Position numbers and translations under genes: made by a program
In this document: in pieces, positions 6,660 to 53,613 of the stretch
Layout: every line of letters begins with the position of its first letter
How positions within the stretch are numbered: the first letter of the stretch is position 1
The notes under the pieces: model-generated
Databases searched by the model: none
What the model saw: the letters and a program-made list of their open reading frames with translations, nothing else
Told to the model about the DNA's origin: nothing
IMG/VR virus record: IMGVR_UViG_3300044960_000525
Span: 1 to 63,192 of that record
Strand: one strand, 5' to 3'
DNA: 63,192 nt
Origin: a virus

Positions 6660-7280
6660 ATGACGCGGCGACGAACGGCGGTCACTCCAGATCAACTCGC
6701 GTTTGCGAAATCGCTGTATGTCTTCGGGATTGAAGACGAGAAGGGGAAGCGTGTCTTTCCGACGCTCCGACGAGTCGCTAAGCGCACAAAAATTCCTGTG
6801 CGCGTGTTAATTGAACACGCTCAACATGAAGATTGGCTTCAAGAACGCGGGTTTGCTCACGAAGAGTTTTATGTGCGGATGAAAGAGGAAATGCTGCAGA
6901 AACTCGTTGAAAAAAGCATTGAACTTCGGACACGACTTGCAGATGGCGCACGGGTAGGTATCAATATTGTGACCGCGCGACTTGGACTGATTGCGCGAGA
7001 AATGACCCAGGATCAGCATTCGACACCGAAAGGCGCGAGAGGGTTTGAATTGCGAGATTTGGGAATGGCGCTTGAAACATTCAAGCGTATTGGTCTCGAT
7101 TCGCTAGGAGATAATATGGCAGAAGAATTTACCTGGCGAGATTTGGTCACTCAAGCCAAAGGGTATCGTCAGGATCATGAGGAGCAGGATCGTGAAAAAG
7201 AAGACACCCCCCCTGTGGCCGAAAGAGCGTCCCCTCGTCGTCGCACCGTACTACAGCGGTCGCGCGCTGTCGAAGGATGA
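6660..7280 (+). CDS. terS: Terminase small subunit (probable)
   Basis: 206 aa directly before the large terminase. The N-terminus has an HTH-like region (PTLRRVAKRTKIPVRVLIEHAQHEDW, residues about 26-52), followed by a long charged helical segment, the usual plan of phage TerS (DNA recognition plus oligomerisation). The 3' end overlaps terL by about 90 bases. No catalytic motif is expected. The call rests on position and architecture. Confidence 0.75.
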   Translation: MTRRRTAVTPDQLAFAKSLYVFGIEDEKGKRVFPTLRRVAKRTKIPVRVLIEHAQHEDWLQERGFAHEEFYVRMKEEMLQKLVEKSIELRTRLADGARVGINIVTARLGLIAREMTQDQHSTPKGARGFELRDLGMALETFKRIGLDSLGDNMAEEFTWRDLVTQAKGYRQDHEEQDREKEDTPPVAERASPRRRTVLQRSRAVEG

Positions 7281-8769
7281 CGCGGCACTCATCCTGCAGC
7301 GGTCGCTCACGAATCCGGAGTTTTTTGCTCGAACGATTCTCGGTGTCTCCCTGTGGAAAACGCAGAGCGAGATTCTCAAAGCCACGTTGTCAAATCACAA
7401 ACGGGTAGCGGTAAAAGCCTGTCACGCGTCCGGCAAGTCGTTCGTGGCTGCCGTGATTGGGATGACGTTTGTGCATTTGAATATCCCGAGTGTGGTGGTG
7501 ACTACGGCTCCCACGCTTCGTCAAGTGGGAGCGGTGTTGTGGAAAGAGATTCATCGCATTTATCGAGGCGCACGAAAGCCCCTTGGGGGTCGGATGTTGC
7601 AGATGTCGTATGCGCTGGCCGACGATACGTTTATGATGGGATTGACCACCGATGATCCCAATAAATTCCAGGGATTCCACTCAGAAAACATTCTTGTCAT
7701 TGTTGATGAAGGACCGGGGGTTGAGGAAAATGTGTACGAAGCCATTGAAGGCGTCATGGCAGGAGGAAACGCGCGACTCTTGCTCCTTGGCAACCCTACG
7801 TCGCTCGAAGGGTCGTTTTATCGCGCATTTAATGATCCGGCCTATTCGCGTTTGTTCTACAAATTCACGATCTCGGCGTTCGACACCCCAAATGTGGTTG
7901 CGAAGAAAGAAATTATTCCGGGGCTGGTAACGCATCAATGGGTGAAAGAGCGACAAGCGGTTTGGGGCGTCGATCACCCGCTGTATCAAATCAAGGTCCT
8001 TGGGGAATTTCCTGGACGCGAATTCGGCGATCTTGTGATTCCACCAATTTTCATTGAGCGCGCGTTCAATGTCACGCTGAATCCGCTTCCTGACGATCCG
8101 GTCATTCTCGGTGTTGATATTGGTGAATTGGGAGGAGACGAAACGACATGTGCGCTTCGTCGCGGTCAGCGATTGTATTGGACAAAGGGATGGATTGACG
8201 CGACGCTCCCTCAGACTGTTCAACGCCTTCTTTCCATCATCAATGAGTATAAAGTCAACGAAGTCCGCATTGACAAGATTGGTGTTGGGGCTGGGGTCTA
8301 CCAAATGTTGAAAGAATTGGAAAACGAAGCCAAAGGACGATGGCGTGTGGTCGGGATTGATGTTCGTGAGAAACCTGTCAATGACGCCAAATACTACGAT
8401 TGTCGGTCAGAGATGTGGTATGAGTTTCGAGAGAATCTGCGCCATGATCGCATTGATCTCTCACAATTTATCAAGCAGACACGGGATAGCGACATTACCA
8501 TTGCCCAACTAACAACACCGAAGTTTCAACCGATGCCAAATAGTGGTCTCATCAAAGTGGAATCAAAAACAGAAATGCGCCGACGTGGTGTCGGGTCGCC
8601 AGATCGGGCCGATGCGGTTGTGCAAGCCTTTTATGATAGTTATGTGAGCAAGGAACCTATTGTGAACATCGGGAGTCCTGCGCAAATTGAAGCCATTATG
8701 AAGCAACCAAAGTGGACGGAGAGCGGAGAGGGGGGTCAAGCGCCGTGGCTAAGAACCCCATTCATGTAA
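7192..8769 (+). CDS. terL: Terminase large subunit
   Basis: About 525 aa. ATPase half: AVKACHASGKS is the deviant Walker A of TerL, ENILVIVDEGPG the Walker B with the catalytic Glu. Nuclease half: VILGVDIGELGGDET, then VNEVRIDKIGVGAGV and GSPDRADAVVQAF give the three Asp of the RNase H-like headful/cos nuclease. It cuts and pumps DNA into proheads. GTG 7192 is preferred over ATG 7177 because GAGGAG sits 8 bases before it. Confidence 0.95.
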   Translation: MKKKTPPLWPKERPLVVAPYYSGRALSKDDAALILQRSLTNPEFFARTILGVSLWKTQSEILKATLSNHKRVAVKACHASGKSFVAAVIGMTFVHLNIPSVVVTTAPTLRQVGAVLWKEIHRIYRGARKPLGGRMLQMSYALADDTFMMGLTTDDPNKFQGFHSENILVIVDEGPGVEENVYEAIEGVMAGGNARLLLLGNPTSLEGSFYRAFNDPAYSRLFYKFTISAFDTPNVVAKKEIIPGLVTHQWVKERQAVWGVDHPLYQIKVLGEFPGREFGDLVIPPIFIERAFNVTLNPLPDDPVILGVDIGELGGDETTCALRRGQRLYWTKGWIDATLPQTVQRLLSIINEYKVNEVRIDKIGVGAGVYQMLKELENEAKGRWRVVGIDVREKPVNDAKYYDCRSEMWYEFRENLRHDRIDLSQFIKQTRDSDITIAQLTTPKFQPMPNSGLIKVESKTEMRRRGVGSPDRADAVVQAFYDSYVSKEPIVNIGSPAQIEAIMKQPKWTESGEGGQAPWLRTPFM

Positions 8770-17913: not shown

Positions 17914-20900
17914 ATGGCTGTAGATCGGCTGGACATCATTATCAATGCTGTAGATCATGCGACAGCGAAAATTCAACATTTGAATAACAACATGGTCCGC
18001 TATCTCCAAGGCATGACGGTGCAAAACCGTCACTTGCGGACCGCCGTTCAGCAGACCAACGCAACGCTCCAACAGCAATCAGCCATTCTCCAGCGTACGG
18101 CCAACCAGCAAAGCCAATATATGCGAAATATGAGTGTGCAATTGAGCCATGTCATTCAGCGATTGAATACGCTCATTGCGAATACGCGACACTATACGAC
18201 GCAGACACAGACCGCAGCCACCGCCACGCGGACGGCGACGACCGCTACCCAGTCATGGGTGGGCGCTCTTGCCAATCTTTCGGGCAACCTTGTGCGCGTC
18301 ATTGATAATTATCGTCATTTGCTCTTGAGAATTACTGTTGGTGTTGTTGTCTTTCGTAGCACAACGATGGCTATCGGCGGGTTTATCAACGCCATCAAAA
18401 GCGGAATCCAAGAAGTCGAGAATTATGAGCGTGCGATCTTGAGTATGACCTCAGCGTTTGTGTCCATGGATAGGCGAACCACCAGTGCGAACATCAGTCA
18501 GATGTTTCAGCAAACCGAGGAATATGTTCGTGCGCTGCTCAATTCGTTGCGTCTGCTCGACGTTGAGTTTTCTGGGTCACTTGAAGATTTGATCGCTATT
18601 ACCCGTGAATTTGCGGTGTATGGTGTCGTGATTGACACCAATAATCGAAGGCACCTTGAAGGGTTGCGTGGTGTTGCTGAAGCGATTAAAGCCCTCTCAC
18701 CGCACATGGATACAGCGAGAGAAGCGGCACAACTTGTACGAGCGGCTGTTTATGGAATTCGTGGCGAAATGGATAACGTCACACGCGCCCTTCGACTCTC
18801 GGGAGAAGAAGGGAAGAAGTTCCGCGCTGAGATGAACGCCGCAAAAACTCCTGCAGAACGTATGAATATCATTTGGGAGGCGCTTGCGGATCGAACGAAG
18901 GGATTCATTGAAGCGGGCGAACGGATGCGATTTACGCTTGAAGCCTCGGTAACGTCCCTGGAGACCGTATGGACAATTATTAGTCAAGAAGGGTTCAAGC
19001 AGGTATGGAAAGACATTGTGTTGACGTTGCAAGAATGGCGAAGTCTGCTCATGGACAACAATGGACAATTGACCGAGATGGGACAGCGGTTGGCCGACGA
19101 GATTAATGTTCAGTGGGAGCGGATCAAACAGGCGCTACGAGACGCTTTTGGAGGCACAGAACTTCCTGATTTTATTGCGCTAGTCAGAACAGCGGGAGAT
19201 ATTCTGGTCTCAATTATTCGTACCATTAACACGATTACCAAGACATTTATGGAGTTCAAACGGACATGGGATGCGCTTCCTGGATTTATCAAACAATTGG
19301 CAACCATAGCGGTGATTGCGCGATTTTTGTTGGGTCTCGATATTGTTTCAATGTTCATCAGACTTGGGAGATTCGTTGGGAGACTGCTTCCCTATCTTGA
19401 TAAATTGACCACAGCCTTTTGGGGTTTGCGTCTTGCGACATTGGGGTGGTACGGGGCGCTGATTCTCATTGGGGCAGGAACGGTTCTCTGGGCTATTCGA
19501 ACGATTGCGAGAAACATCGAGCGACTTCAAATGGGATTGCCACCTGGGGTGTTTCCTGACCAAGCCCTGCAGAGTGTTCGAACGCCGATGCTTCGTCTTC
19601 AGATACAAGGTGAGCGTCCTGGGCTCGCAGGGCTCACCGTACCACGATTGGAATATGAGCGTCCTTGGCTAGAACCCCCGCCATTTGGTCAACCGATTCC
19701 GTCATTGATCCCCTCGAAGCCGAAGAAGCCGCCGTTCACACCACAACCGACTCCGCGTGCTCCTGACGACAAGCAGCAAGGTCGTGAAGGTCGTGATCCT
19801 GCGATTGATAGGTTGCGTGACTTTCTCGCACTCAAGCAGCGGCAGCGTGAACTGAATGAAATTACCGCGGAAGAAGAACTCCAGCAATTGCGCACGACAG
19901 GAATGGCGTTGGCGAACAAGATCAAAGACGTACGCGAGAAAGAACTTGCGCTCCATAACGTTCGTGTTCGGATGCAACGGGTTGAGCAGGAGATGTATGA
20001 GTCCAGAATTCGAATCAATCAGGAACGCGAAGAAGCCACTAAACAACATGCACAGGAAGTCGAGCGTCTTACTGAAGACCTAGAACGCATGGTTGAACAA
20101 GCGGAAACTGAATATGATGTCTCACGAATTCAGCAATATCTCGCGGCAGCCGAGGCTGCAGGGACAATCACGAAAGAAGTGGCTGATGCGTGGCTTGCAA
20201 AGGTACGAGCCGTTGTTGAACTACGACAAGAAATTCGTCAAGCAGAAATCGACTTTGAGAATCAACGACGGCAGGACGAGCAAGCGGAAATTGAAATTCA
20301 ACAAAAGAACGAACAGCGACGCAAAGACGCCGATGCTCAACTCGAACTCCTGAGAGCAGAAATTGATTTGCAAGAAGCACTGGATGCGATTCGCCGTGAA
20401 GGAATTATTGGCGAGCGTCAGCGATATGAGGCCGATCTGAGAGCGCGACAGCGCGTTATTGAGAATTTGCAGCGTCAACTGGATTTGATGGAAAAGGCTA
20501 ACGAAGAAGCGGCGAAAATGCCGGGAGGGGTACTTGTCTATTCACCGCGCGAGATTCAAGAAATTACTGATAAAATCAGGATTGCCAAAGAGGAGGCTAA
20601 TGCATTTCAAGAAGCGTTCCGTATTCGTACCGATCCTGTGGCCGCATGGGCCGCGGTGATTGAGCAAATTCGCGGATATGTCCATAATTGGTATGAGACC
20701 TTTCTGAGAGTCACCGATGCAATTGAAGGAGCGTTTCAGCAACTCTTTACCGATATTTTGTCTGGAAGCAAGGAGTTTGGCGAATCATTGTTGGACTTTT
20801 TCCGAGGGATCGTAAACGCAATTATTGCGGAATTGGCTCGACTCGCCGCGCGATGGGTTATTGGGTGGCTGTTCCCGTTTGCGAAAGGCGGGATCATCCC

Positions 20901-21234
20901 AATGGCTCATGGAGGAATGATTCCTGCTTATCAATATGGCGCTGTCGTTGCAACAGGAAGTCGCGCGGGGGTGTATGGAGAACCCACCTATCTCGTGGGT
21001 GAAGGACGTAATCGTGAAGCGGTGGTTCCACTGCCCGATAATCGTTCCATTCCTGTGCGATTCGAGAATGGAGGGGCACAACAGCCGCTCGAAGTAAAAA
21101 TCAAAGTCGTTCAAGTCTTTGATCCGCGTAATATTCCAAAGCCTGATCCTGATGAAATTCTCGCGGTCGTGGCTGCGGATGCAATGCGGGGAGGACCGAT
21201 GGCCAAGGTTATCAAGAAAGTAATTGGGCGGTAG
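17914..21234 (+). CDS. Tape measure protein
   Basis: 1106 aa, the longest gene of the tail region. Long Gln/Asn-rich coiled coils (about 20-110 and 640-900), three hydrophobic stretches (for example RITVGVVVFRSTTMAIGGFI, QLATIAVIARFLLGLDIVSM and TLGWYGALILIGAGTVLWAI), and the usual Gly-rich end (AKGGIIPMAHGGMIPAYQYG, later YLVGEGRNREAVVPLPDNRS). It sets tail length and helps DNA entry. At roughly 1.5 angstrom per residue the tail would be about 150-165 nm. Confidence 0.95.
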   Translation: MAVDRLDIIINAVDHATAKIQHLNNNMVRYLQGMTVQNRHLRTAVQQTNATLQQQSAILQRTANQQSQYMRNMSVQLSHVIQRLNTLIANTRHYTTQTQTAATATRTATTATQSWVGALANLSGNLVRVIDNYRHLLLRITVGVVVFRSTTMAIGGFINAIKSGIQEVENYERAILSMTSAFVSMDRRTTSANISQMFQQTEEYVRALLNSLRLLDVEFSGSLEDLIAITREFAVYGVVIDTNNRRHLEGLRGVAEAIKALSPHMDTAREAAQLVRAAVYGIRGEMDNVTRALRLSGEEGKKFRAEMNAAKTPAERMNIIWEALADRTKGFIEAGERMRFTLEASVTSLETVWTIISQEGFKQVWKDIVLTLQEWRSLLMDNNGQLTEMGQRLADEINVQWERIKQALRDAFGGTELPDFIALVRTAGDILVSIIRTINTITKTFMEFKRTWDALPGFIKQLATIAVIARFLLGLDIVSMFIRLGRFVGRLLPYLDKLTTAFWGLRLATLGWYGALILIGAGTVLWAIRTIARNIERLQMGLPPGVFPDQALQSVRTPMLRLQIQGERPGLAGLTVPRLEYERPWLEPPPFGQPIPSLIPSKPKKPPFTPQPTPRAPDDKQQGREGRDPAIDRLRDFLALKQRQRELNEITAEEELQQLRTTGMALANKIKDVREKELALHNVRVRMQRVEQEMYESRIRINQEREEATKQHAQEVERLTEDLERMVEQAETEYDVSRIQQYLAAAEAAGTITKEVADAWLAKVRAVVELRQEIRQAEIDFENQRRQDEQAEIEIQQKNEQRRKDADAQLELLRAEIDLQEALDAIRREGIIGERQRYEADLRARQRVIENLQRQLDLMEKANEEAAKMPGGVLVYSPREIQEITDKIRIAKEEANAFQEAFRIRTDPVAAWAAVIEQIRGYVHNWYETFLRVTDAIEGAFQQLFTDILSGSKEFGESLLDFFRGIVNAIIAELARLAARWVIGWLFPFAKGGIIPMAHGGMIPAYQYGAVVATGSRAGVYGEPTYLVGEGRNREAVVPLPDNRSIPVRFENGGAQQPLEVKIKVVQVFDPRNIPKPDPDEILAVVAADAMRGGPMAKVIKKVIGR

Positions 21235-21270
21235 GATACAATATGACTGACTCCAAGGGAGGGATGGGTG

Positions 21271-21531
21271 ATGCCGCGTATTACTGTTGTGGCCGTTGAT
21301 GCGCTTGGCGCTCGTTCAGCCCCAGCCACCGTTGAGGTGCGTGTCAACCAAGCACCAGTCATTGACACTGTGACGGTGGACCCACCGCGAGTGAATCCAG
21401 GAGGAGAAGCACTCATCACCATTGTCGCACGCGACCCGGACAATGACGCGCTAACCTACGAGGTCACAGCAGACGTTGGAAGTATCGAAGCAACAACGCA
21501 GCCGCACATCTTCCGGTATCGTGCGCCATAA
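21271..21531 (+). CDS. Small Ig/cadherin-like tail protein
   Basis: 86 aa. The phrase NQAPVIDTVTVDPPRVNPGG followed by ALITIVARDPDNDALTYEVT and ADVGSIEA is a bacterial Ig-like/PKD-type beta-sandwich repeat. ATG 21271 has GGGAGGG 7 bases upstream. It is the first of three consecutive genes with such domains just after the tape measure, probably a surface-exposed tail decoration. Confidence 0.7.
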   Translation: MPRITVVAVDALGARSAPATVEVRVNQAPVIDTVTVDPPRVNPGGEALITIVARDPDNDALTYEVTADVGSIEATTQPHIFRYRAP

Positions 21532-21541
21532 GGGGCCTCTA

Positions 21542-21778
21542 GTGTTCAATTGGCTGCTAACGCTCGTGCGACGGATATGGGACTGGCTGCGGGGCTGGCC
21601 GCTCCACCCAACGATTACATCTATTCAGGCTGATCCTACGGTCGTCGCCCCGGGTGGCACATCTACCATCACGGTGCGTGTGCGTGGTGGTCAGGTGCCA
21701 TATCAGTATGTGGTGAGCACCACCCATGGACGTGTCCAGCAAATCAGCGATGGGGTTTTTCAATGGCGCGAGGAGTGA
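21542..21778 (+). CDS. Small membrane-anchor plus Ig-like protein
   Basis: 78 aa from GTG 21542 (AAGGGG upstream). An aromatic amphipathic start (FNWLLTLVRRIWDWLRGWPL) followed by the same Ig-like phrase as the previous gene (ITSIQADPTVVAPGGTSTIT). The two genes and the first residues of the next (ELTIRVRDSLGLEARRTVSV) look like separated repeats of one ancestral fibre. Confidence 0.65.
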   Translation: MFNWLLTLVRRIWDWLRGWPLHPTITSIQADPTVVAPGGTSTITVRVRGGQVPYQYVVSTTHGRVQQISDGVFQWREE

Positions 21779-21784
21779 TGGGCG

Positions 21785-23605
21785 ATGAGTCCTGAACTCA
21801 CCATTCGTGTGCGTGACTCGTTGGGGTTGGAGGCCCGACGGACCGTCTCAGTGCCGGTGGAGACCGGTGCGCCCGTCGTACGCTGGTCCACGCTGGGGTT
21901 GACCCGTACGTCGTCGTACGTCATCCCGTCCGGGGTGACGGTACTGCAGGACGTAGACGACGCCGAGGTTGGCCGCCTCCAAGTCCTCGGTGTGCTGCGA
22001 GCAGATCGCACCCGCCCGACACGCCTCCGACTCTACGGGAACCTGGTCGTCACGGAAGGGGGTGTGGTGGACTACGGCACGCCGGAGGACCCGGTGCTGG
22101 TGGACTGTCGGCTGTGGTGGCCCGTGGTGGATGAGTCGCGGATCGTCGGGGGCGGCATGACCGTGCTGGAGACCGACCCCGGGCTGTGGGTGATGCACCA
22201 CGGCAGGCTGCAGACGCACGGCGCGCGCACGACCCCGTGGACGCGCGCCACGAGCGGCCTAGTGGCGGGGCAGAGCGAGTTCACCGTCGAGGATGCGTCC
22301 GGGTGGCGCGCGGGGGACGAACTCGCGATTGCGCCGACCAATCCACCGACGACGCCCTCGTACTGGATGCAGACGGAGCGGCGCATCATCGCATCAGTCA
22401 GCGGCAACGTCGTGCGGCTGACGCTCCCGCTGTCGGTGGCGCACCCCGCGGTGGTCACGCCGTGGGCGACGTACACCGCGGAAGTCGCGAACCTCACGCG
22501 CACGGTGAAGATCGGCGGGACACCAACCGGTCGCGCGCACATCTTCATCCACGCGCATCATCCACAGGCGATCCACTACGCGGAGTTGCACCACCTGGGC
22601 CCGCTGGGCACAGGACGAGGACGCTACGCGCTGCACTATCATCACAACTTCGATGGCACCGACGGTACGGTCGAGGAGGGTGTGGTCGCGCACGACATCG
22701 GGAGTAACGCGTTCGTCCCGCACCTGAGTAGCGGGATCACGTTCCGCCAATTCGTTGCCGCGTTCATCAAGGACAACGCCTTCTGGTTCGACCCGCGTCG
22801 CACGAATCCGAACGAAGCCTTCATGGATTGGGGGCGTGTGACCTACGACCGCTGTCTCTCGATCCAGGTCGGCGATGGCGGCAACGACGACCACTATTTC
22901 CTCGGGGCGGGTGTGGGCAACCGCTGCCTCGACTGCGTGGCGGTCGGCGGCGAGGCCAAGGGCTTCAACTGGCCCGAGGATGAGAGTTTGGGGAGTCAGC
23001 CGGGGCAGGGGGTGTGGGAGTTCCGTCACGGGCTCGCGCACAACGTGCGGTTCCTCGGTCTGCGGAGTTGGCAGAACGATCCCTGGCTGCACACCATCGA
23101 CGGGTTCGATGGATACTACTGCCGCGAACAGGGACGTGAACCGTTCGCGGTGGAGTTGGGCGCGTACACCCTGCGCTACCAGATGCACCGGTTGCGCCTG
23201 TGGTGGCCCTCGGGGATCAAGACCCACGCGGTCGGGATCGACCACTATCACCACGAGCAGGATGGTCGCGGCGTGGAGGACTTCGCCCTCTGGGCGCGGG
23301 ACGACCAAGCGTTCAGCGAGCATGTCCCGCGTCTCATCGTGGCCCCCGTCTGGCGGAACTATCGGGTCGCGGGACTGGGCGTCCTGCGTACCACCGATGG
23401 GCAAGGTCGTTTGCAGGCCGTCAAGTACGAACTTCGCAACCCACAGACCCCGGGGACGCCGACGCCCGTGTGGTTCGCGGACGACTGTCACCCGGACTGT
23501 GAGGTGCTGCTCGTCCGCGACGGTCAGCCCACGCTGCGTCTGCGACGGCGGGATCAGCCGGGGACGTATGACCCGCGATTCAACGCGTCGGTGACGGTGC
23601 TCTGA
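21785..23605 (+). CDS. G8-domain/parallel beta-helix tail protein (CEMIP-like)
   Basis: 606 aa. Residues about 35-150 match the G8 domain (VIPSGVTVLQDV, LGVLRADRTRPTRLRLYGNL, VVTEGGVVDYGTPEDPVLVD). Next comes LWVMHHGRLQTHGARTTPWT, WRAGDELAIAPTNPP and TYTAEVANLTRTVKIGG, then a right-handed beta-helix (AELHHLGPLGTGRGRYALHY, HHNFDGTDG) ending in an Ig-like piece. This order is that of CEMIP/TMEM2 and bacterial G8 proteins, some of which degrade hyaluronan-type glycans. In a tail it would be a receptor-binding or depolymerising spike. GC content is clearly above that of the tape measure, suggesting recent acquisition. Confidence 0.85.
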   Translation: MSPELTIRVRDSLGLEARRTVSVPVETGAPVVRWSTLGLTRTSSYVIPSGVTVLQDVDDAEVGRLQVLGVLRADRTRPTRLRLYGNLVVTEGGVVDYGTPEDPVLVDCRLWWPVVDESRIVGGGMTVLETDPGLWVMHHGRLQTHGARTTPWTRATSGLVAGQSEFTVEDASGWRAGDELAIAPTNPPTTPSYWMQTERRIIASVSGNVVRLTLPLSVAHPAVVTPWATYTAEVANLTRTVKIGGTPTGRAHIFIHAHHPQAIHYAELHHLGPLGTGRGRYALHYHHNFDGTDGTVEEGVVAHDIGSNAFVPHLSSGITFRQFVAAFIKDNAFWFDPRRTNPNEAFMDWGRVTYDRCLSIQVGDGGNDDHYFLGAGVGNRCLDCVAVGGEAKGFNWPEDESLGSQPGQGVWEFRHGLAHNVRFLGLRSWQNDPWLHTIDGFDGYYCREQGREPFAVELGAYTLRYQMHRLRLWWPSGIKTHAVGIDHYHHEQDGRGVEDFALWARDDQAFSEHVPRLIVAPVWRNYRVAGLGVLRTTDGQGRLQAVKYELRNPQTPGTPTPVWFADDCHPDCEVLLVRDGQPTLRLRRRDQPGTYDPRFNASVTVL

Positions 23606-24678
23606 TGGCCCTGGTGACGTTCTCGCGCTCCTTCTACTGGCCCCAGGTCTTCCGCACCGCGGGTGGTGATCCGACGGGAGAGTTCGGCACGACCGCGCTC
23701 AACGCGAGCGGGCATCGCTTCGGCTGGGTGTTCACCGCGCCGGTCGGGGGATCGTGGGAAGGATTCGGCTTCCGCACGGGGAGCGTGACGACGGCGAGGG
23801 ATACGGATGCGCGCGCCGAGACGGTGGGCAGCGACGCCAACCCCACCGGCACGCTGGTCGCGACGGGTGCGCAGGTCACGATTCCGGCGGCATCCATCAC
23901 GGCGAACACCTGGATCACCGCGACGTTCGGAACCGCGCCCACCATTGCGGCAGGAGACGAACTCGCGGCGGTGCTTGCGCCCACCAGCACGCCGAACTAC
24001 CAGACCGCGAACCGTCTCATCAGGCACCTGGAGTCGTTTTGGCCTGCTGGACGGTTCTGGGGCGGCTCGTCGTGGACACACTTGCCCAACTGGCTCGTCT
24101 TCGCCGTTCGTATTGATGGGACCTGGATTTTCCTGCCCGGTGCGATCCCTATCGCAAGCCATCAGAACGTGCTCTTCCGCACCGGCCAGAGCCCCTCCGA
24201 GGTCGGCGTGTACCTGACGCCTTCGGTCCGCCTGCGCACCGTCGGGTTTCTGGTCAGCGGGTTTTCGTTCATGTCTGACGGTACCACTGCGACGGTGCGG
24301 GTGCGAGCGCTCGACAACACGGTGCTCGCGGAGTCCACGGGCTGGCGGGGCGGGATGCGGACGGCGCTGGGCAGCAACGCGTCGCAGTTACGCGGACGCT
24401 GGGCGAGTCCGACGACGCTGGAGCCGAACATCACCTACAGGTTGGTGATCGAGGGCACATCGTCCACTGACAACTGCCGCTTGCAGTATCAGCGGCTCCC
24501 GTCCACCGCGTACGCGACCGCGATGCCGCAGGGGTCTGGCCACTATCGCACCGAGCGGTCGGGCTCGGGCTCGTGGACGGACACGGACACCGACTACGCG
24601 AACATGGCGCTGGAGATCGACGCGGTCGAGGGGGGCGAAACTGTCCTCGTGCCGCGCCGGACGACGTACTTCGCCTAA
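23605..24678 (+). CDS. Beta-sandwich tail protein, unknown
   Basis: 357 aa, overlapping the previous stop by one base (TGATG). Two similar halves: AGDELAAVLAPTSTPNYQTA... and LEPNITYRLVIEGTSSTDNC, each after a segment like VRVRALDNTVLAESTGW, suggest jelly-roll carbohydrate-binding modules. GC-rich like its neighbours. Probably a spike or fibre component; no family recognised. Confidence 0.65.
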   Translation: MALVTFSRSFYWPQVFRTAGGDPTGEFGTTALNASGHRFGWVFTAPVGGSWEGFGFRTGSVTTARDTDARAETVGSDANPTGTLVATGAQVTIPAASITANTWITATFGTAPTIAAGDELAAVLAPTSTPNYQTANRLIRHLESFWPAGRFWGGSSWTHLPNWLVFAVRIDGTWIFLPGAIPIASHQNVLFRTGQSPSEVGVYLTPSVRLRTVGFLVSGFSFMSDGTTATVRVRALDNTVLAESTGWRGGMRTALGSNASQLRGRWASPTTLEPNITYRLVIEGTSSTDNCRLQYQRLPSTAYATAMPQGSGHYRTERSGSGSWTDTDTDYANMALEIDAVEGGETVLVPRRTTYFA

Positions 24679-24693
24679 TCAGGAGGGGCGCCG

Positions 24694-25155
24694 ATGGCAC
24701 GGGTCTACAGCATTGTGGTCGATGCGTTGTCCGTCAACGCGGTGACCGATCTCGTCTACATCAAGCCGCACGCGACGCGGGGTTTCGTCGTACACGAGGT
24801 GCTGGTCACGCAGGACACGAGCGAGACCAGCGAGCAGTTGCCGCTCAACCTGTTCCGCACCGCGACGGACAATGCGGCCCAGGGGACCGCGGGGACCGCG
24901 AACCCGCTGGTGCCTGGCGATTCGGCGTTCGGCGGTACGGTACGCGTGGGCATCACCGGCGCCAACCTCGCCGCGGAGACGACGCTGCTGCGGCGCGAAT
25001 CGCAGAACGTGCTCGGCGGATGGCATTACCTCCCGACGCCGGAAGCACGGTATGTCTTCCCCGGCGGCGGGCATGGCTTCGTCGTCAAACTCGACGCGGC
25101 CCCATCGTCCGCGCTGACCATTTCGGTGACGGTGACGATTGAAGAACTCTTTTAG
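24694..25155 (+). CDS. Small beta-rich tail protein, unknown
   Basis: 153 aa, good GGAGGGG ribosome site. Pattern VYSIVVDALSVNAVTDLVYI, then RGFVVHEVLVTQDTSETSEQ and FVVKLDAAPSSALTISVTVT looks like a trimeric fibre head or capping module. Last gene of the GC-rich cassette. Confidence 0.6.
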   Translation: MARVYSIVVDALSVNAVTDLVYIKPHATRGFVVHEVLVTQDTSETSEQLPLNLFRTATDNAAQGTAGTANPLVPGDSAFGGTVRVGITGANLAAETTLLRRESQNVLGGWHYLPTPEARYVFPGGGHGFVVKLDAAPSSALTISVTVTIEELF

Positions 25156-25165: not shown

Positions 25166-26605
25166 ATGCGGACATGGGTCTACCGCCGCCCTCCGCAGGA
25201 ACGCCCACGACGTGGGTCGTGGGTGGTACTCCACTCCGGTCAAGAACTGCAATCGCTATTTGCGAGCGTGACTGTTCCTTGGGACAGTAGCGGCGCAATT
25301 GCGCACACAGCAACCATTCCATGGACATCGACACGCACGCTCGTGCAGACACCAAGCGTCCCGTGGGAGTCCCTAGCCTCACGAGAACGCGCGGCGGAGT
25401 CACTCTGGGAAAGTCTGTCTGGGATTACTCACAGCCACGCGATCTCGTGGGAGAGTCTGTTTGGAATTGTTCGCAGCGACACCGTCGTATGGGAAAATCT
25501 GCACAGTGTGCTCCGCAGCGATAGCGTTCCATGGGAACATCTATTCCGCTTGTTCCGCGAACATGATACGTCATGGGAGAGTCTGCAAGGTGTGCTCCGC
25601 AGCGATGCGATTGCATGGGAGAATCTACACACACTGCTCCGCGGCGAGGGTCTCTCGTGGGAGAGTGTGCAGACCATCTCCCGCAATAATAGTGTGGAAT
25701 GGGAACATCTCCACGGTCTCCTCCGCAGCGATGCGATTCCATGGGAAAGTGGTCATGGAATACAACGTAGCGAGAACATCCCATGGGCATCAGGCGGAAC
25801 AGCCACACAAACGGGAAGTATTTCGTGGGAATCGTTGGAAAGACTCGCGCAAAGCGGAAGTCCTTTGTGGGAATCCGTGCAGGGAGTATTTCAGACAGTC
25901 ACGAGTGTGTGGGAAGCCCTTCACGGGCTTGAACACTCTGCGGTGATGTTCTGGGAATCAGGAGGAACAGCCACAGGACTTGTTCTTGTTCCCTGGGAAT
26001 CGCTCGCACATCGTGAGCGTCATGCGCAGACTGTCTGGGAAGCCCTCCATGGACTCCGACGTTCTGACGATGAACCGTGGGAAGCCCTCCAGCACATAGC
26101 ACCCGCTGTTGTGGTTGTGTGGGAAGCCGCAGGCACGATCACACGTCTCTCTGATGTCCTGTGGGAAAGTCTTCAGCATCGTCTCCAACGTGAAGATGTT
26201 CACTGGGAGTCGCTGCGCGACATTACCGCGTTGACGACTCCTTCATGGGAGGCTTTGCGGGCCCTTTCAACTCATGCTATTCTAGTGTGGGAAGCCGGTG
26301 AGTACTGTCTTGCGATGGCGGTGGTTCCATGGGAATCTACAGGCGAAGTGCTTGCAACAGTCACACAGCACGCGCTGATTCCTTGGGAATCCATAGGATT
26401 CGTTCACGGGGTGGCGGTGGTTCCATGGGAATCGGTTCCCTTCCACGACATTCCACTTCAACACTTTCGCGTCACGTCACTCCCAATTTTTCTGGTTCAC
26501 GAGTCCGCAGTGTTTCGTGTAGCACCACTTTCGATATTTGTCGTCACGTACGATCTCAACCTTCGTGTTGCTAAAATTCGTGTATTTATTGTGCCAAAAG
26601 CATGA
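25166..26605 (+). CDS. Tail fibre-like protein of 28 tryptophan repeats (14 residues)
   Basis: 479 aa. From residue 39 to about 435 the protein consists of 28 tandem repeats, nearly all exactly 14 residues: WESLQGVLRSDAIA, WENLHTLLRGEGLS, WEHLHGLLRSDAIP and so on; one unit is 18 long. W1 is invariant, position 2 is nearly always Glu, position 3 Ser/Ala/Asn/His, and positions 13-14 are often hydrophobic-Pro. This implies a regular solenoid, one turn per repeat, with stacked Trp. A short non-repeat end (HFRVTSLPIFLVHESAVFRV) is beta-rich. It follows the G8 protein and precedes other tail genes, so a fibre shaft is likely. No named family known to me. Confidence 0.75.
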   Translation: MRTWVYRRPPQERPRRGSWVVLHSGQELQSLFASVTVPWDSSGAIAHTATIPWTSTRTLVQTPSVPWESLASRERAAESLWESLSGITHSHAISWESLFGIVRSDTVVWENLHSVLRSDSVPWEHLFRLFREHDTSWESLQGVLRSDAIAWENLHTLLRGEGLSWESVQTISRNNSVEWEHLHGLLRSDAIPWESGHGIQRSENIPWASGGTATQTGSISWESLERLAQSGSPLWESVQGVFQTVTSVWEALHGLEHSAVMFWESGGTATGLVLVPWESLAHRERHAQTVWEALHGLRRSDDEPWEALQHIAPAVVVVWEAAGTITRLSDVLWESLQHRLQREDVHWESLRDITALTTPSWEALRALSTHAILVWEAGEYCLAMAVVPWESTGEVLATVTQHALIPWESIGFVHGVAVVPWESVPFHDIPLQHFRVTSLPIFLVHESAVFRVAPLSIFVVTYDLNLRVAKIRVFIVPKA

Positions 26606-26625: not shown

Positions 26626-27363
26626 ATGCCGATCAGTGCCAACGATCTCATCCCCTATCTTGCCGAGAACAATCCAGACGACGATGTGTCGACCGGGGGT
26701 GGAGGCATTGAGACTCTCGGTCGCCCAACGTTCACGCAGTGGACGGCCAATGCGGTGGTGGCTGTCGTCTCCGATGGAACCGATACTCGTACCTTGAACG
26801 TCGAAGGACGCTCTCCGACTGGAAGTATTGTCACCGATGCGATTGTCTTGAACGGGACCACCGAAGCGGTGGGCACAGTCACCTTTGAGCGTATTCTGAA
26901 ATTGAGTTTGTCCACAACCGATGCGAGTCGAACGGTCACAATTCGACAGGGAGCAGGCGGCCCAACACGAGCGACCATTGATCCGAACGAACGGTTTCGC
27001 TTTGCGCATTTCAAGCGCAGTGCGTCAGAAGCCACCACGGTTACTCGATACGATAAATTGCATTGGAAAAACACCCACGCGACGCTGACGTTGCAAAATG
27101 CCAAGGTACAGTTGGCTGCTGATCCTGACGCCCGTATTCGTCAGGGCATCCATACGTCGAAAAACGATACCGTCACCATTGCCAACCGCAAAACCGCACC
27201 ACCAGGAATCACGTTTGTTGATGATACCGTTGACCAGGATGTTCCCGGCACCACGCTTGAAGCGGGATCGTCCATCGGTGTCTGGTATGAGCAAACGCTT
27301 CCCGCAAACGATCCCGCGCATCGAACCACGTATACATCACAAATTACTGGACAAACTGTCTAG
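26626..27363 (+). CDS. Tail structural protein, unknown
   Basis: 245 aa with ribosome site AAGGAGG. SPTGSIVTDAIVLNGTTEAV GTVTFERILKLSL-type beta strands and RTVTIRQGAGGPTRATIDPN suggest an Ig-like or tube-like virion protein; a conserved Trp-Tyr end (GVWYEQTLPANDPAHRTTYT). GC returns to the genome average here. Confidence 0.6.
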   Translation: MPISANDLIPYLAENNPDDDVSTGGGGIETLGRPTFTQWTANAVVAVVSDGTDTRTLNVEGRSPTGSIVTDAIVLNGTTEAVGTVTFERILKLSLSTTDASRTVTIRQGAGGPTRATIDPNERFRFAHFKRSASEATTVTRYDKLHWKNTHATLTLQNAKVQLAADPDARIRQGIHTSKNDTVTIANRKTAPPGITFVDDTVDQDVPGTTLEAGSSIGVWYEQTLPANDPAHRTTYTSQITGQTV

Positions 27364-27377: not shown

Positions 27378-27830
27378 ATGAACATCGAAGAGATTCTCCA
27401 ACGAGTCGAGGCTGGTGAGGCCATCACCCGCGCGGACGCGAACGCCGTTGTGCGTCTCTGTGAGCGTCGGTGTCGAGGCAACACGCTTGTGCCTCCCGAG
27501 ATTCAAAAGAAATACTTTGCGTTTCTGGCTGACCCAACGATTGACACGCATACCCTCTTTTCCGCGTTTCTCAATGAAGACTTCGAGGGAGCCGCTGATG
27601 TGAGGACCTATGCGCAGACACGGCTCGCTGTACGAGGACGCGACGATGTACGATCCGCGCTCATTGACGCGCTCCGCGCACGAGCCGCAGATGTTGGTCA
27701 GGGATGCGGGTATGATTTCAACGATATTGTGTGTGCTGGACCGTTCGATGGACGTGAATACCCATTTGTCTGCCCGCAGTGCGGGGTTGAGGGGACCTAT
27801 CGCGCGCCGAGGTTTGTGCTCAATGGCTGA
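27378..27830 (+). CDS. Zinc-finger protein in tail region, unknown
   Basis: 150 aa. The helical N-terminal part is followed by CGYDFNDIVCAG (two Cys) and YPFVCPQCGVEGTY, so four Cys could hold one zinc. ATG 27378 follows GGGAGG. It overlaps the next gene by 8 bases. Function unknown; possibly a tail assembly factor. Confidence 0.6.
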   Translation: MNIEEILQRVEAGEAITRADANAVVRLCERRCRGNTLVPPEIQKKYFAFLADPTIDTHTLFSAFLNEDFEGAADVRTYAQTRLAVRGRDDVRSALIDALRARAADVGQGCGYDFNDIVCAGPFDGREYPFVCPQCGVEGTYRAPRFVLNG

Positions 27831-28134
27831 ACCCCTGTTTCGCGCCGATCCAAAACAGCCCAGCGAAATTTATCCCATTGCGGTTGATTGGGAAAATCGG
27901 CTCTCTCCAGGGGAAACAATTGTCACCCATGGAGCGTCGGCAATTCGTCTTGATACCGGCGCTGATGCGACCAGTGATTTGTTGATTTTGCCCACATCTA
28001 TTGTGGGAACGCAGCAGCGTGTCACCCTGAAAAATGGGAGTCACGGTGTCTATTATAAAGTCACCTTCACCATTACGACGAGCGCCGGTCATCTGCTTGA
28101 GGCCGATGTCATTCTTCCTGTGGTTGAACGGTGA
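27823..28134 (+). CDS. Fibre-tail adaptor-like protein
   Basis: 103 aa starting at the ATG overlapping the previous stop. PSEIYPIAVDWENRLSPGET followed by GTQQRVTLKNGSHGVYYKVT and FTITTSAGHLLEADVILPV matches the Ig-like pattern of phage fibre-tail adaptor proteins (a DW...L..GD/E motif, then a Y.v...itT..G...e). Small tail-surface component. Confidence 0.65.
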   Translation: MAEPLFRADPKQPSEIYPIAVDWENRLSPGETIVTHGASAIRLDTGADATSDLLILPTSIVGTQQRVTLKNGSHGVYYKVTFTITTSAGHLLEADVILPVVER

Positions 28135-29677: not shown

Positions 29678-29862
29678 TTCATGAATTTACGCACCTCATC
29701 AAAGAGCATATTGTGCGCCATGAACGCACGCTTCAAGAATTATTGCGTGCCGAGGACAACTTGCTCCAGGTGTTACGAGACAATAAACGTGCTCAACATG
29801 AGGCCACGGGCGCCATCAACGCCCTGCAGACCATCCTCAAGGCGGTAAACCCCGATGCCTAA
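29674..29862 (+). CDS. Small coiled-coil protein
   Basis: 62 aa, almost entirely one amphipathic helix (HERTLQELLRAEDNLLQVLR). Overlaps both neighbours by a few bases. Probably a trimerising or clamp helix of the tail tip; no family known. Confidence 0.6.
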   Translation: MIHEFTHLIKEHIVRHERTLQELLRAEDNLLQVLRDNKRAQHEATGAINALQTILKAVNPDA

Positions 29863-30358
29863 ATTGATGTCTCCCGGCATGATCGCCGCCAAACATGTCC
29901 TCGATCCTCAAGGACCGTGGGTGACGCTCTACAAATTGAATTTGAATCCTCCAGGAGAATCCAATCCCACGCTCTACCGACGTATTGTCAATCATCCGCG
30001 CGCCATTGTGTATGGAGGAGAAGAATATCTTCCCTTTCCCGTACGGCACGAGGGGATTCGAGAGGAAGCCCAGGGACGATTGCAGCGCATTACGGTGCAG
30101 GTGGCCAATGTGAGTCGAGAAATCCAGGATTTGCTCGAAGCGCACGATGGGTTGCGGGGCAAACACGTCACGTTGATTGCGATCAATCTCGATCAGCCCG
30201 ATCTGGGCGATGTGCGACAAACATTCATTATTGATAGCGTGACCGCAGGGGATCAGGTGGTCTCAATCACCTTGGGCAAACCCATCCCCATTATGGACGT
30301 AAAATTGCCCAAACGGCTCATTTTCCGCGACCTGTTCCCCGCGGTGATGTATACATGA
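29855..30358 (+). CDS. Minor tail protein L-like
   Basis: 167 aa. VTLYKLNLNPPGESNPTLYR, then YLPFPVRHEGIREEAQGRLQ RITVQVAN (phrase from Y to Q shown) and LEAHDGLRGKHVTLIAINLD fit lambda gpL/DUF1833-like tail-tip proteins. It precedes NlpC-like and J-like genes in lambda order L-K-J. Confidence 0.75.
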   Translation: MPKLMSPGMIAAKHVLDPQGPWVTLYKLNLNPPGESNPTLYRRIVNHPRAIVYGGEEYLPFPVRHEGIREEAQGRLQRITVQVANVSREIQDLLEAHDGLRGKHVTLIAINLDQPDLGDVRQTFIIDSVTAGDQVVSITLGKPIPIMDVKLPKRLIFRDLFPAVMYT

Positions 30359-30849
30359 CCCCCCAGGGGGGTGTCTTCCCCCTTCCCCGTCCCTCCGAAG
30401 CCCTCCTGGGGGCTCCCAGGCCCCTTCCTGGGGCTTCTAGAACGCACCCAGGATACTCGTGCGCGTGGTGTGAAGCGCATTTTCCCCCAACACTCCACGA
30501 TTGGCTGGGATGGCACCATTTTCACACGGATGCGCCGTGCTGGTGGTTTGTTCACCAGGTCTATCGTCGCCATCTGCAGATTGTGTTGCCCAAACATGAA
30601 GTGATTGAAACCCGGGATCAATGGTCGTCGCTCGTCACCGCTCACATGACGCAATTCCAGCGCGCAGACCCCGACACGTATCGGCTCGTGTTATTCTGCT
30701 ACCCCAATGGGACGATGCACGTGGGGATTATGGAAAATGCTCGATGGTTTCTCCATGTGCCGACGCCCGAAGCCGGCGTCTGTCGCGCTGAACTCATGCG
30801 CTATCAGGAACGAGGGTATCTCCGTGGAATCTATCGCTACATCGGGTGA
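30355..30849 (+). CDS. NlpC/P60-like tail-tip peptidase (K-like)
   Basis: 164 aa. DAPCWWFVHQVYRRH carries the presumed catalytic Cys and YPNGTMHVGIMEN the His, as in NlpC/P60 domains of lambda gpK. It would cut peptidoglycan during DNA entry. CAWCEAHFP shows an extra Cys pair. The first about 40 residues (MTPQGGVFPLPRPSEALLGA...) are translated from dispersed element copy 4 and are not part of the domain. Starts by ATGA overlap. Confidence 0.7.
   Translation: MTPQGGVFPLPRPSEALLGAPRPLPGASRTHPGYSCAWCEAHFPPTLHDWLGWHHFHTDAPCWWFVHQVYRRHLQIVLPKHEVIETRDQWSSLVTAHMTQFQRADPDTYRLVLFCYPNGTMHVGIMENARWFLHVPTPEAGVCRAELMRYQERGYLRGIYRYIG
30358..30452 (+). repeat. Dispersed G/C-rich element, copy 4 (inside a gene)
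   Basis: C/G-run arm 30359-30390, core GAAGCCCTCCTGGGGGCTCC (30396-30415), then TTCCTGGGGCTTCTAGAACG. This copy is read through in frame as the N-terminus of the NlpC-like protein. Confidence 0.8.
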
Positions 30850-33436
30850 GCGTCTTCGGTGCTATCATTGTTCGACGTTGGTGTCCATCCCGCACCGACG
30901 ATGGGCGCACTGTCCATCGTGTCTGCGCAAAGTGCGCTATCGCAAAGGACGACGATTTTACCAAAAAACGACCATTGATCTCGATGAAAAACTCGCAACA
31001 CTCGGGTTGCGGCATCATTCGCGGGCACGTGTCCGAGGAGCCCTTGTGGGGGCATTTCTTGGGTGGTGGGCGACCGCGTCGGTGCTCGCAAAAGTCTTCG
31101 TCGGTCTCTTTGTGGTCGCTGGTCTCATGTACGTTGCACGACTCCTCCAGCGTCCACGTCCCGACCGAGAGACTCAACAAGTCTATGGGTTCACGTCTCG
31201 AACAAATGCCGTTGGGACAGGAACGCCGGTTCCCATTATTTATGGGGAACATCGTCATTGGCCTGCAGTCGTTCAAGAATATGTTGATGTCGTCAATAAT
31301 ATTTCGACGCTTTATCGGCTCTATTGTCTTGGAGAAGGACCCATTGAATCCGTAACAGGCATCGAGTTGAATAATCAACCCATTGAGTTTTTCAATGGAG
31401 TGTCGTGGCAGGTGCGCTATGGGCATCCTGTTCAAACGGTGATTCCATGGTTTGCGGATAATCGGAATACGTATCATGTTGGCATTGAATTGTTGGCTGA
31501 TGGGCGCAGTTTTATCTATCGGACGATTACGCCCATTGATGAGTTTATTGTGCGAGTCTTGTTCCCCCAAGGGCTCACAGGAAGTGGTGGGGCCACAGGC
31601 AGCGGAACCAACTCCGTGACGGTGCGGGTTGAGCATCGCATCCTCGGCGACGTGCCGTGGACGCTTCTTGGCAACTTTGTTGTGAATGGGGTCGCCAACG
31701 ATACACGACCTATTTTGCGACAATTCCGCTCGGGTCCTTTGACGCCTATTACCGTCAAATTGCCTGGATCAGTGACCAACAACAACAGTATCGGGGGAAC
31801 AGCATGGACGAACCCCGCTCATGCGTTGACCTCGAATGACCAGTGGGCTGTTGTTGACGAACCCACGTCTACTCCGCGCGATACCCAATATCTCCTGTTC
31901 ACCGATTTTCAAATGAACCTACCTGGCGATGCTGTTGTGAATGGGATACAAGTTGAAGTCGAGCGACATCATGCGCCTGGTGGAGTGAGTGGAGGCAACG
32001 ATTGGCTCCCCGAAGGACCGCCTGAGTCTACCTATGATCGGAGCGTGCGGTTGTATGTCAACGGCACATTCATGGGGGAGAATAAGGCCGATACCACGAC
32101 AGCCTGGCCAACAACCGATGCGACAAAATCGTATGGAGGCCCATCAGATTTGTGGGGGCTCACGTCAGCAGAGTTGAACCCAACAACCCTCAACGCTTCA
32201 AACTTTGGATTTGGGATTGCTGCTCGCGTGGACAATGGATCAGCGAAAATTGATGCCGCAACAATCCGCGTCTATTACACGTCGTCGAGTGTGCCGGGTA
32301 TTGCACGACGAGAAATTCGTGTAACGCGAGTGAGTACGTCGAGCACACCGAAACCTCCAATGTCCTTTGATTCCATTGATGAAATTAGTTATGGGAGTAT
32401 TCTCAACACGTATCCCAATATTGCGATACTCGGGCTCAAAGTTCAAGCGAGTGAACAATTGTCTGGGTCGGTTACGACAAGTTGTCTTGTGCGCGGACGA
32501 ACAGTGCGTCAACTCACCGATGGCGAATTGAGTACGACAGAATCGTGGTCACAAAATCCTGTTGAATGTTTGATTGACTTGCTGACGAACGCCCGATACG
32601 GGCTCGGCACATACATTACCGATGCGGATTTGTTGCTTTCCTCGTTCCAAACCGCAAAGGATTATTGCAATGAGATTGTCGAGGGAGAGACCCGTCATCA
32701 GTTGGACATTATTATGGACGAATATCTCAACGCCTGGGATTGGCTCGAAGTCTTGCTGAATACGTGTCGTGGGATTCTCATTGAAAGCGATGGGCGCTGG
32801 AAACTCGGCGTTGACCACCTTACGGAACCCTCACAGGTATTCACCAACGCGAACATTGTCAAAGGCACGTTTACCAATGCTTGGGTCTCATTGTCAGAGG
32901 AATACGATACCGTCGAGGGCATCTATTTTGATCGTGAATTGGATTATCGACGTGAAAGCGTCTTCGATCCCGTGCCAGCGGGACGGCGCATCAAGTCCAT
33001 TCAAATCAAGGGAATTGTTCGGCGAAGTCATGCGCTCCGCGAAGTTCGATACCATCGGCGCGTCATCGAACTCACCTCTCGATTTATTGAGTTTGAAACG
33101 TCCATTGAGGCGCTCGGGTCTGATGTTATGGATGTCATTCTCGTCTCTCACGATGTTCCAAAATGGGGAATGAGTGGGCGTGTCGTGAGCGTGAGCGGAT
33201 TGACGATTACCGTTGATCGAAATGATCTCCCCACCGATGTGGCTACCACGGATTATGATTTGATTGTTCGTCAGCAAAATGGGGATATTGAGCAGCGAGC
33301 CATTACGGCTATTTCGGCTCCCTATGTTTCTTCTGAAGGGCATCCGCGGCAAGACATTACGATTGCGTCTTCGTTTGCGTCTTCACCGGTTCCACGAAAT
33401 ACCTTGTGGGTACTCGTGCTCGCTGAGGGCGATTAA
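30824..33436 (+). CDS. Tail tip/baseplate hub protein (J-like) with zinc-ribbon and membrane N-terminus
   Basis: 870 aa from GTG 30824. N-terminus: CYHCSTLVSIPHRRWAHCPS (zinc ribbon with a later CLRK), then a hydrophobic segment (ALVGAFLGWWATASVLAKVF, continuing to about 115) like lambda gpI, then the J hub: TGTPVPIIYGEHRHW, ALGSDVMDVILVSHDVPKWG and VSGLTITVDRNDLPTDVATT. It ends NTLWVLVLAEGD, exactly before the RxxxIxE..yxIxAxEYxPxxY motif with which J hubs continue; that motif lies in the next two genes. Host-recognition and tail-closing role inferred from the family. Confidence 0.85.
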   Translation: MESIATSGERLRCYHCSTLVSIPHRRWAHCPSCLRKVRYRKGRRFYQKTTIDLDEKLATLGLRHHSRARVRGALVGAFLGWWATASVLAKVFVGLFVVAGLMYVARLLQRPRPDRETQQVYGFTSRTNAVGTGTPVPIIYGEHRHWPAVVQEYVDVVNNISTLYRLYCLGEGPIESVTGIELNNQPIEFFNGVSWQVRYGHPVQTVIPWFADNRNTYHVGIELLADGRSFIYRTITPIDEFIVRVLFPQGLTGSGGATGSGTNSVTVRVEHRILGDVPWTLLGNFVVNGVANDTRPILRQFRSGPLTPITVKLPGSVTNNNSIGGTAWTNPAHALTSNDQWAVVDEPTSTPRDTQYLLFTDFQMNLPGDAVVNGIQVEVERHHAPGGVSGGNDWLPEGPPESTYDRSVRLYVNGTFMGENKADTTTAWPTTDATKSYGGPSDLWGLTSAELNPTTLNASNFGFGIAARVDNGSAKIDAATIRVYYTSSSVPGIARREIRVTRVSTSSTPKPPMSFDSIDEISYGSILNTYPNIAILGLKVQASEQLSGSVTTSCLVRGRTVRQLTDGELSTTESWSQNPVECLIDLLTNARYGLGTYITDADLLLSSFQTAKDYCNEIVEGETRHQLDIIMDEYLNAWDWLEVLLNTCRGILIESDGRWKLGVDHLTEPSQVFTNANIVKGTFTNAWVSLSEEYDTVEGIYFDRELDYRRESVFDPVPAGRRIKSIQIKGIVRRSHALREVRYHRRVIELTSRFIEFETSIEALGSDVMDVILVSHDVPKWGMSGRVVSVSGLTITVDRNDLPTDVATTDYDLIVRQQNGDIEQRAITAISAPYVSSEGHPRQDITIASSFASSPVPRNTLWVLVLAEGD

Positions 33437-44036: not shown

Positions 44037-44121
44037 TTCGGCCACGAAAGGGGTGAGAGACCGAATACTCCTGAAACGCCCTCATGTCTTATCCCAACAA
44101 TAATTGTCTAGGAGGATCGGT

Positions 44122-44730
44122 GTGCCAAAGGACAAACAGGAAATTCCTGACCTGTGGGAATTGCTCGAAGAGATTCAGAAAAACGAGCACGCGGCTAATC
44201 TGAAAATTGCGGAGAAGTGGCCGACGCTGTATTACGCGATCTCCGCGATGAACGCTCAGGAAATTGATGAATGGCTTCAAACAGCAGCACAGACAAAGGG
44301 CGTGAAGGTCAAGAAAGACGTGAGTGTTGCTGAGAGTGATGACGACGAGGAGGACGACGAAGAGGGCGACGACGACGAAGACGAAGACGAAGACGAAGAC
44401 GACGACGACGACGAAGACGAAGACGAAGACGAAGACGAAGACGAAGACGAAGACGAAGACGAAGACGAAGACGAAGACGAAGACGAAGACGAAGACGACG
44501 ACGAAGACGACGACGAGGAGGAGGACGAGGAGTTGGCGCGTAAACCCCTTCACAAGGACGACGAAGAGGACGAAGACGAGGAGGAGGAAGACGAGGAGGA
44601 CGAGGAGGAGACACCCAAGAAGCGGGCTTCTGCAGCAACGAAGCGGCAGGTTGCTGTGACAAAGAAGCGTCGTGGACCGGGGCGTCCGAGGGGAGTGAAG
44701 GACCGTAAGCCACGGAAGAAGCGACGCTAA
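44122..44730 (+). CDS. Acidic-repeat protein with C-terminal AT-hook-like tail
   Basis: 202 aa, GTG start after AGGAGG. Folded N-terminus (about 1-65, IPDLWELLEEIQKNEHAANL, LYYAISAMNAQEIDEWLQTA), then about 80 residues nearly all Asp/Glu, then a basic end with RRGPGRPRGVKDRKPRKKRR, an AT-hook-type motif. The layout is like eukaryotic HMG or histone chaperones: acidic tract plus minor-groove hook. May mimic DNA or dislodge host nucleoid proteins. The acidic tract is a (GACGAA)n hexanucleotide run that is prone to length change. Confidence 0.75.
   Translation: MPKDKQEIPDLWELLEEIQKNEHAANLKIAEKWPTLYYAISAMNAQEIDEWLQTAAQTKGVKVKKDVSVAESDDDEEDDEEGDDDEDEDEDEDDDDDEDEDEDEDEDEDEDEDEDEDEDEDEDEDDDEDDDEEEDEELARKPLHKDDEEDEDEEEEDEEDEEETPKKRASAATKRQVAVTKKRRGPGRPRGVKDRKPRKKRR
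44378..44500. repeat. (GACGAA)n / (GACGAC) microsatellite
   Basis: About 16-17 consecutive GACGAA hexamers within the acidic tract, coding (Asp-Glu)n. Slippage changes tract length without a frameshift, a possible contingency-like locus. Confidence 0.9.
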
Positions 44731-53169: not shown

Positions 53170-53545
53170 GTAGCCGCGGAGAGTACCGCGAGTTCGGAGC
53201 GAGCCGTGAGGAGCGAGAGTACCGTGGCTGCAGAGCGAGCCGAAGGCGAGGAGAGTACCGCCTGGTGCGAGCGAGCCGAGTCGGGAGAGAGTACCGTTGG
53301 CGGAGAGCGAGCCGTGGTCACCGAGAGTACCGTGGACAGGGAGCGAGCCGCGCGACAGGAGAGTACCGTGAAACCGGAGCGAGCCGAAAGTGCGGAGAGT
53401 ACCGTGGGCCCTGAGCGAGCCGGGGCTGTCGAGAGTGCCGTTGCTGGTGAGCGAGCCGCGAGGGACGAGAGTACCGTGGGAACCGAGCGAGCCGTCCTCT
53501 GGGAGAGTACCGCGTCGCGCGAGCGATCCGTAAGTAGCGAGAGTG
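53170..53545. repeat. 18-nt array of alternating GAGAGTACCG and GAGCGAGCCG
   Basis: About 20 units, each a fixed 10-mer plus 8 variable bases. GAGAGTACCG alternates strictly with GAGCGAGCCG (36-base super-repeat). The 10-mers are conserved at every base while the 8-mers are freely variable. A frame starting at 53206 would code (ESTVxxERAxxx)n and other frames are also open; full base conservation suggests a DNA or RNA function instead. Not a CRISPR (repeats too short, spacing 8). Confidence 0.8.
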
Positions 53546-53613
53546 AGGGTTCGATTCGGAGTGGGGAGGGAAACAGCGATGGCGTATCTGCGTACATTGC
53601 CTGTGTGCAATGA
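53206..53613 (+). CDS. Possible 12-residue repeat protein (doubtful)
   Basis: 135 aa if translated: ESTVGGERAVVT, ESTVDRERAARQ, ESTVKPERAESA and so on. No good ribosome site was found at the ATG, and two other frames are open as well, a by-product of the 18-nt period. Listed as the alternative to a purely DNA-level array. Confidence 0.25.
   Translation: MRSESTVAAERAEGEESTAWCERAESGESTVGGERAVVTESTVDRERAARQESTVKPERAESAESTVGPERAGAVESAVAGERAARDESTVGTERAVLWESTASRERSVSSESEGSIRSGEGNSDGVSAYIACVQ

Follow-up and report, generated by a model that had tools for sequence, protein, structure and literature searches.

A repeat gene in the tail region

The window, the whole stretch of 63,192 nucleotides of viral DNA that was analysed, is a 63-kb IMG/VR virus record carrying genes for terminase, portal, protease, major head protein, tape measure, and gpL-like and J-like proteins; it is a new siphophage. 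Between the tape measure gene and the gpL-like and J-like genes lies a gene for a protein with tryptophan at a fixed 14-residue step (Table 1). It sits within a run that encodes, in order, a 153-aa protein, the repeat protein, a 245-aa protein named here for its ‘EDDxSxxGGAI’ motif, a 150-aa protein and a Gp77-like protein.

Table 1. Features of the repeat locus and its surroundings (window coordinates)
Feature	Coordinates	Strand	Remarks
Tape measure protein	17914..21234	+	phrog_339, E 1.7e-14
G8-domain protein (PF10162), 606 aa	21785..23605	+	distant homologue upstream of the L252 repeat gene
153-aa protein directly upstream of repeat gene	24694..25155	+	homologue directly upstream of the L296 repeat gene, E 2e-19
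14-residue-repeat protein	25166..26605	+	479 aa; basic N-terminal ~38 aa, 28 W units, beta-like C-terminal tail (residues ~434-479)
28-unit array	25280..26467	+	26 units of 14 residues, one of 18, last unit without closing Trp
Sole 18-residue unit WESTGEVLATVTQHALIP	26330..26383	+	4-residue insertion, in the unit's variable part
Last W unit and C-terminal tail	26426..26605	+	repeated FRVxxLPIFxV-like segments
Partner, 245 aa, ‘EDDxSxxGGAI’ protein	26626..27363	+	near repeat gene in most relatives
150-aa protein	27378..27830	+	homologues in L022, L082, L241, L295 and L293, same module
Gp77 ‘fiber-tail adaptor’-like protein, 103 aa	27823..28134	+	PF23148, E 1e-14, scanned within ORF 27610-28134; start 27823 inferred
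Minor tail protein L-like	29855..30358	+	PF05100, E 2.8e-9
Central tail fibre J-like protein	30707..33436	+	phrog_31, E 3.8e-93; true start may be downstream

The 28 tryptophans in register occupy residues 39-421 (nt 25280-26428). They are separated by 27 intervals, 26 of 14 residues and one of 18; the longest unbroken run at step 14 is 26, whereas 20,000 shuffled versions of the protein gave at most 5. A preliminary description, drawn from the letters of the sequence, had given 28 repeats and the 14-residue step correctly; its count of 27 units of 14 and one of 18 is true only when the final unit, lacking a closing tryptophan, is included. The consensus it offered, WESLxGxLRSDAIP, stands in its first half, since the array as a whole reads WES/AL-x-G-[IL]; the RSDAIP tail was drawn from a few neighbouring units, with R in 12 of 30 units, P in 9 of 30 and SDAI in only 2.

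At the DNA level the 42-base units have diverged: pairwise identity averages 42% overall and 35% at third codon positions. Where residues are identical, 41% of pairs also have the same codon, a figure that codon usage would put at 34%. Diverged units with near-chance codon sharing mean that the array is old and that the 14-residue pattern has been kept at the protein level. Both earlier claims on this point, a 42-base period in diverged units and selection on the protein pattern, are thus borne out. A low-complexity or slippage product without function might be argued from relatives L041 and L260, which contain near-identical recent units; but the window units keep frame and spacing despite their divergence, and the family keeps its synteny in unrelated phages. 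Divergence with a conserved period refutes this reading, whose probability is close to nil.

Several other features of the window were recorded. Three adjacent genes at 21785-25155 (606, 357 and 153 aa) have a third-position GC of 0.84-0.86, compared with 0.48-0.55 on both sides; on this compositional contrast the segment, between the tape measure and repeat genes, appears to be a fibre cassette acquired by recent exchange. Immediately ahead of the G8 gene, two short ORFs overlap in different frames (21268-21778); both have weak Ig-like matches (Big_9, SprB), and they are possibly one gene split by a frameshift. Other repeats include 18-base units ATTATTCCCACGCCAATA near the window start (616-822); about 31 copies of a GACGAA-type hexamer (44344-44528), forming an Asp/Glu run in ORF 44104-44730, whose end is a basic tail; and 36-base repeats reading ESTVxxERAxxx, with a 12-residue period, at 53179-53494 (frame 53206-53613).

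Relatives and linked genes

Searches of Pfam and NCBIfam with the repeat protein return no family above curated cut-off, and a sequence search of solved PDB structures returns no relative. The profile phrog_6079, ‘tail protein’, matches the window repeats only (E 4.3e-20, profile positions 56-171, in three separate stretches). Full-length members of phrog_6079 (L268-L272 from bacterial genomes; Acidovorax phage ACPWH) have 14-15-residue W/Y-[EQ]-[DE]-A repeats in the N-terminal region, for example TWEDAARLRTERAG RYQQAAPL, followed by a conserved C-terminal domain. That domain (profile ~257-604) is missing here: there is no match past position 171 and the ORF ends after the array; the window protein is therefore not filed as a phrog_6079 member. 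The link lies in the repeats alone, and convergence of simple repeats may account for it.

Relatives were found with difficulty. Related-locus searches with the plain protein, the L-like protein or a hand-made consensus gave no matches; tblastn with the window, L041 and L238 proteins found no stand-alone relative among 50,697 phage records; and a pattern scan of genome contigs returned mostly simple tandem repeats. Two kinds of scan over viral contigs, one for W-E recurring every 14 residues and one for E-W-L, also gave many simple repeats, together with true relatives from uncultivated phages at L022, L028 (full gene in L296), L041/L059, L068/L074, L082, L234, L237, L238, L252, L259 and L260/L261. 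When an alignment of 12 units was searched against genomes, matches appeared in 6 of 369 of one class and 1 of 385 of another. A part of these are simple repeats, while L293, L294 and L295 seem to be genuine prophage relatives. The WEE/WELGIGN loci and the coil-like L232/L243 were excluded because they are simple repeats, and L060, with only four units and no partner gene, was left out.

The stand-alone family is defined here by at least nine units of 14 residues with hydrophobic-E-x-L and by a linked partner gene. The window protein has 26 units uninterrupted, and L022, L041, L238, L295 and others have 13 to 30, in a choice of units partly biased to E. The family consensus is [VI]-P-hydrophobic-E-[AS]-L-x-G-[ILV]. 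Among 212 units picked by hydrophobic-[ED] at exactly 14, a selection that fixes positions 0 and 1 so that frequencies there are not independent, W fills position 0 in 58% and V/Y/I/L/F fill it in the others; L stands at position 3 in 64%, L/I/V at position 6 in 75% and P at position 13 in 42%. Where units run to 15-18 residues, the additional ones lie in the variable part.

Most relatives do without the strict tryptophan. A P-V-E-W-L branch (L259, L260, L289) has Trp at position 2 and Val at position 0; a V/I-E-A-L branch has no Trp, the L295 array containing none at all. Trp is thus a family variant and not a defining feature, and with branches in which it is shifted or absent, Trp stacking cannot be a general principle. 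Some relatives also carry globular parts: the 1007-aa protein of L296 has a globular domain between two arrays, and L286 and L260 have a globular N-terminal part ahead of the array. L082 encodes a second repeat protein of 245 aa (6945-7682, minus strand) adjoining one of 512 aa, a pair that suggests gene duplication.

Gene context ties the family together. Homologues of the ‘EDDxSxxGGAI’ partner (E 1e-28 to 1e-116) lie near the repeat gene in L022, L041/L059, L074/L068, L082, L237, L238, L252 and L296 and in the prophages L293, L294 and L295, as the partner gene itself does in the window. Of 10 well-matched loci, 8 have it nearby, whereas none of the 121 unrelated viral loci picked up by these scans does (Fisher p ~1e-8, a value inflated by near-duplicate contigs). 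A G8-domain protein is encoded ahead of the repeat gene in L252 as well as in the window. Structural neighbours of the relatives include tape measure and Dit in L238 and L252, tape measure in L294, tape measure, L-like and J in L295, and a baseplate wedge in L028; the family accordingly spans siphovirus-like contigs (L252, L294 and L295 by tape measure; L238 by Dit), myovirus-like ones (L028 by baseplate wedge) and prophages. The preliminary assignment as a tail protein holds, on the position of the gene, the PHROG ‘tail’ match and the placing of relatives among structural genes.

A probable rod or scaffold, and how its units might pack

One way to understand these arrays is to regard the repeat protein as a structural component of the virion, a rod or scaffold of a host-adhesion (tail fibre) module, and this is probably correct, with substantial room for doubt. 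Fused globular domains and an adhesion-module context are what would be expected of a rod or scaffold. Identical 14-residue steps would build the elongated body; the hydrophobic residues at positions 0 (always Trp in the window), 3 (Leu) and 6 (Ile/Leu/Val) would form one face, packing on neighbouring units, sister chains or a partner subunit, with Glu-1 kept beside it and positions 7-11 as a variable loop. Unit number would set rod length, changing by duplication of single units or of four-unit blocks. In the virion, the short N-terminal segment would probably anchor the protein to the tail, and the products of 26626-27363 and 24694-25155 would probably dock on the array; in relatives, the globular domains before or between arrays would be carried by the same rod.

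How the units pack is less clear from prediction. AlphaFold2 was run on monomers. Twelve units, with 13 alignment rows, give an all-beta model of regular pattern (pLDDT 49, pTM 0.44); the full-length chain gives short helices (pLDDT 29, pTM 0.15), with strands only at E434-445 and E448-460, at low confidence. The two weak models thus conflict. Foldseek against the PDB gives no significant match (E > 0.1, TM < 0.4 to any solved structure). The preliminary description had named a prediction of disorder as fatal to its model, but low pLDDT in a repetitive, possibly oligomeric and relative-poor protein is not evidence of disorder.

That model was a solenoid fibre shaft with stacked tryptophans: a self-stacking beta-solenoid or trimeric beta shaft, close to the triple beta-spiral. 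The all-beta 12-unit model, Pro and Gly at fixed places, and a Trp that, at +0 or +2 by branch, would point to one and the same face of a strand all agree with it. However, averaged hydrophobicity peaks at unit positions 0, 3 and 6, and the hydrophobic moment is greatest at 110-120 degrees and not at 170, which argues against a simple beta ladder; the conserved Glu-1 has low strand propensity; and the 12-unit model is of low confidence and resembles no solved structure. Trp is also dispensable in the family. The models neither support nor exclude a stacked-Trp solenoid, and a beta shaft of this kind is improbable.

The 0/3/6 spacing leaves open a short helix, a three-sided coil or partner binding. 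Helical units would each comprise a short helix (positions ~0-8) and a loop, winding into a superhelix with four units per turn. The amphipathic periodicity fits this, as do L295 units such as IEALRELAQSS and the short helices that follow Trp in the full-length model (pLDDT ~30). A four-unit (56-residue) superperiod in the window array (lag 4, z 3.6, p 0.001), common also to L022 (p < 0.001) and L082 (z 6.4), fits as well, but it may also reflect old block duplications, and the peak in L041 is at lag 5, not 4. Between a quarter and a half of the units have Gly at position 4 or 5, and some branches have Pro at 8 or 9; these residues sit badly in a helix, and such a helical superhelix seems doubtful. 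A continuous coiled coil is rejected by Pro at 13 and Gly at 4/5, and a seven-bladed propeller (28 = 7 x 4) was dropped because the unit numbers of relatives do not fit.

The main rival to the rod supposes a chain with no fold of its own, an extended multivalent docking strand in which a single unit, or a block of four, would serve as the docking site for one partner-fibre subunit, so that the array counts subunits. AlphaFold2 does not fold the array alone, aromatic and Glu-x-Leu units resemble docking motifs, and the partner gene is strictly linked. The lateral fibres of phage JBD30 (gp47/gp48, gp49 domain I) are multi-subunit fibres touched by an extended chain (PMC11445458); yet gp49 itself has no such 14-residue repeat, and motifs on a flexible chain need no exact 14-residue step, whereas insertions here are few and fall only within the unit's variable part. 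A docking strand is accordingly rather unlikely, if worth keeping in view.

If the rod or scaffold is the right perspective, it might further be an undescribed repeat fold, with a 14-residue step and four steps per superhelical turn, serving as a length-adjustable adhesion rod in several unrelated tailed phages, its core aromatic placed at either of two positions or replaced. This more specific proposal is tentative, a real possibility that falls somewhat short of an even chance. The fibres of phages set limits to host range, and predicting them is difficult. With its fixed 14-residue step, clear consensus and constant partner gene, the family offers an annotatable class for genes that are now blank, and a testable structural problem; a Trp that moves between two positions while Glu stays fixed is a direct handle on unit packing.

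Comparison with known systems

The triple beta-spiral shafts of adenovirus fibre and reovirus sigma 1 build a rod from short Pro/Gly repeats of similar length. Their motif differs from that of the window protein, which has no sequence match to any solved chain, and the models made here are of monomers. The phrog_6079 ‘tail protein’ family (e.g. Acidovorax phage ACPWH, AXY83362) is like the window protein in its aromatic-acid/Gln repeats of 14-15 residues and in being encoded where the block of tail genes ends; unlike the window protein, its members possess the conserved C-terminal domain and repeat Q/E-D-A instead of E-S-L.

J-like proteins of Casjensviridae (Aeromonas phages AVP3 and BUCT552) likewise have a C-terminal 14-residue period with aromatic and Gly residues (APYGLQPGVIADLT), but with Tyr and not Trp, no E-x-L, and as an appendage to a J-like protein; the tblastn similarity (weak, E 1e-5) is below established homology. 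The AVP3 protein (L002, 4216-8601) ends in many near-identical units APYGLQPGVIADLT, an unrelated-looking motif. A BUCT552 match was dismissed as the antisense strand of a repeat.

A profile search for a link between phrog_6079 and the JBD30 distal tail protein did not find one, and the searches done revealed no sequence relation between the window protein and JBD30 gp47, gp48 or gp49. The likeness to JBD30 is one of arrangement: in both, the fibre module comes right after the tape measure gene (PMC11445458).
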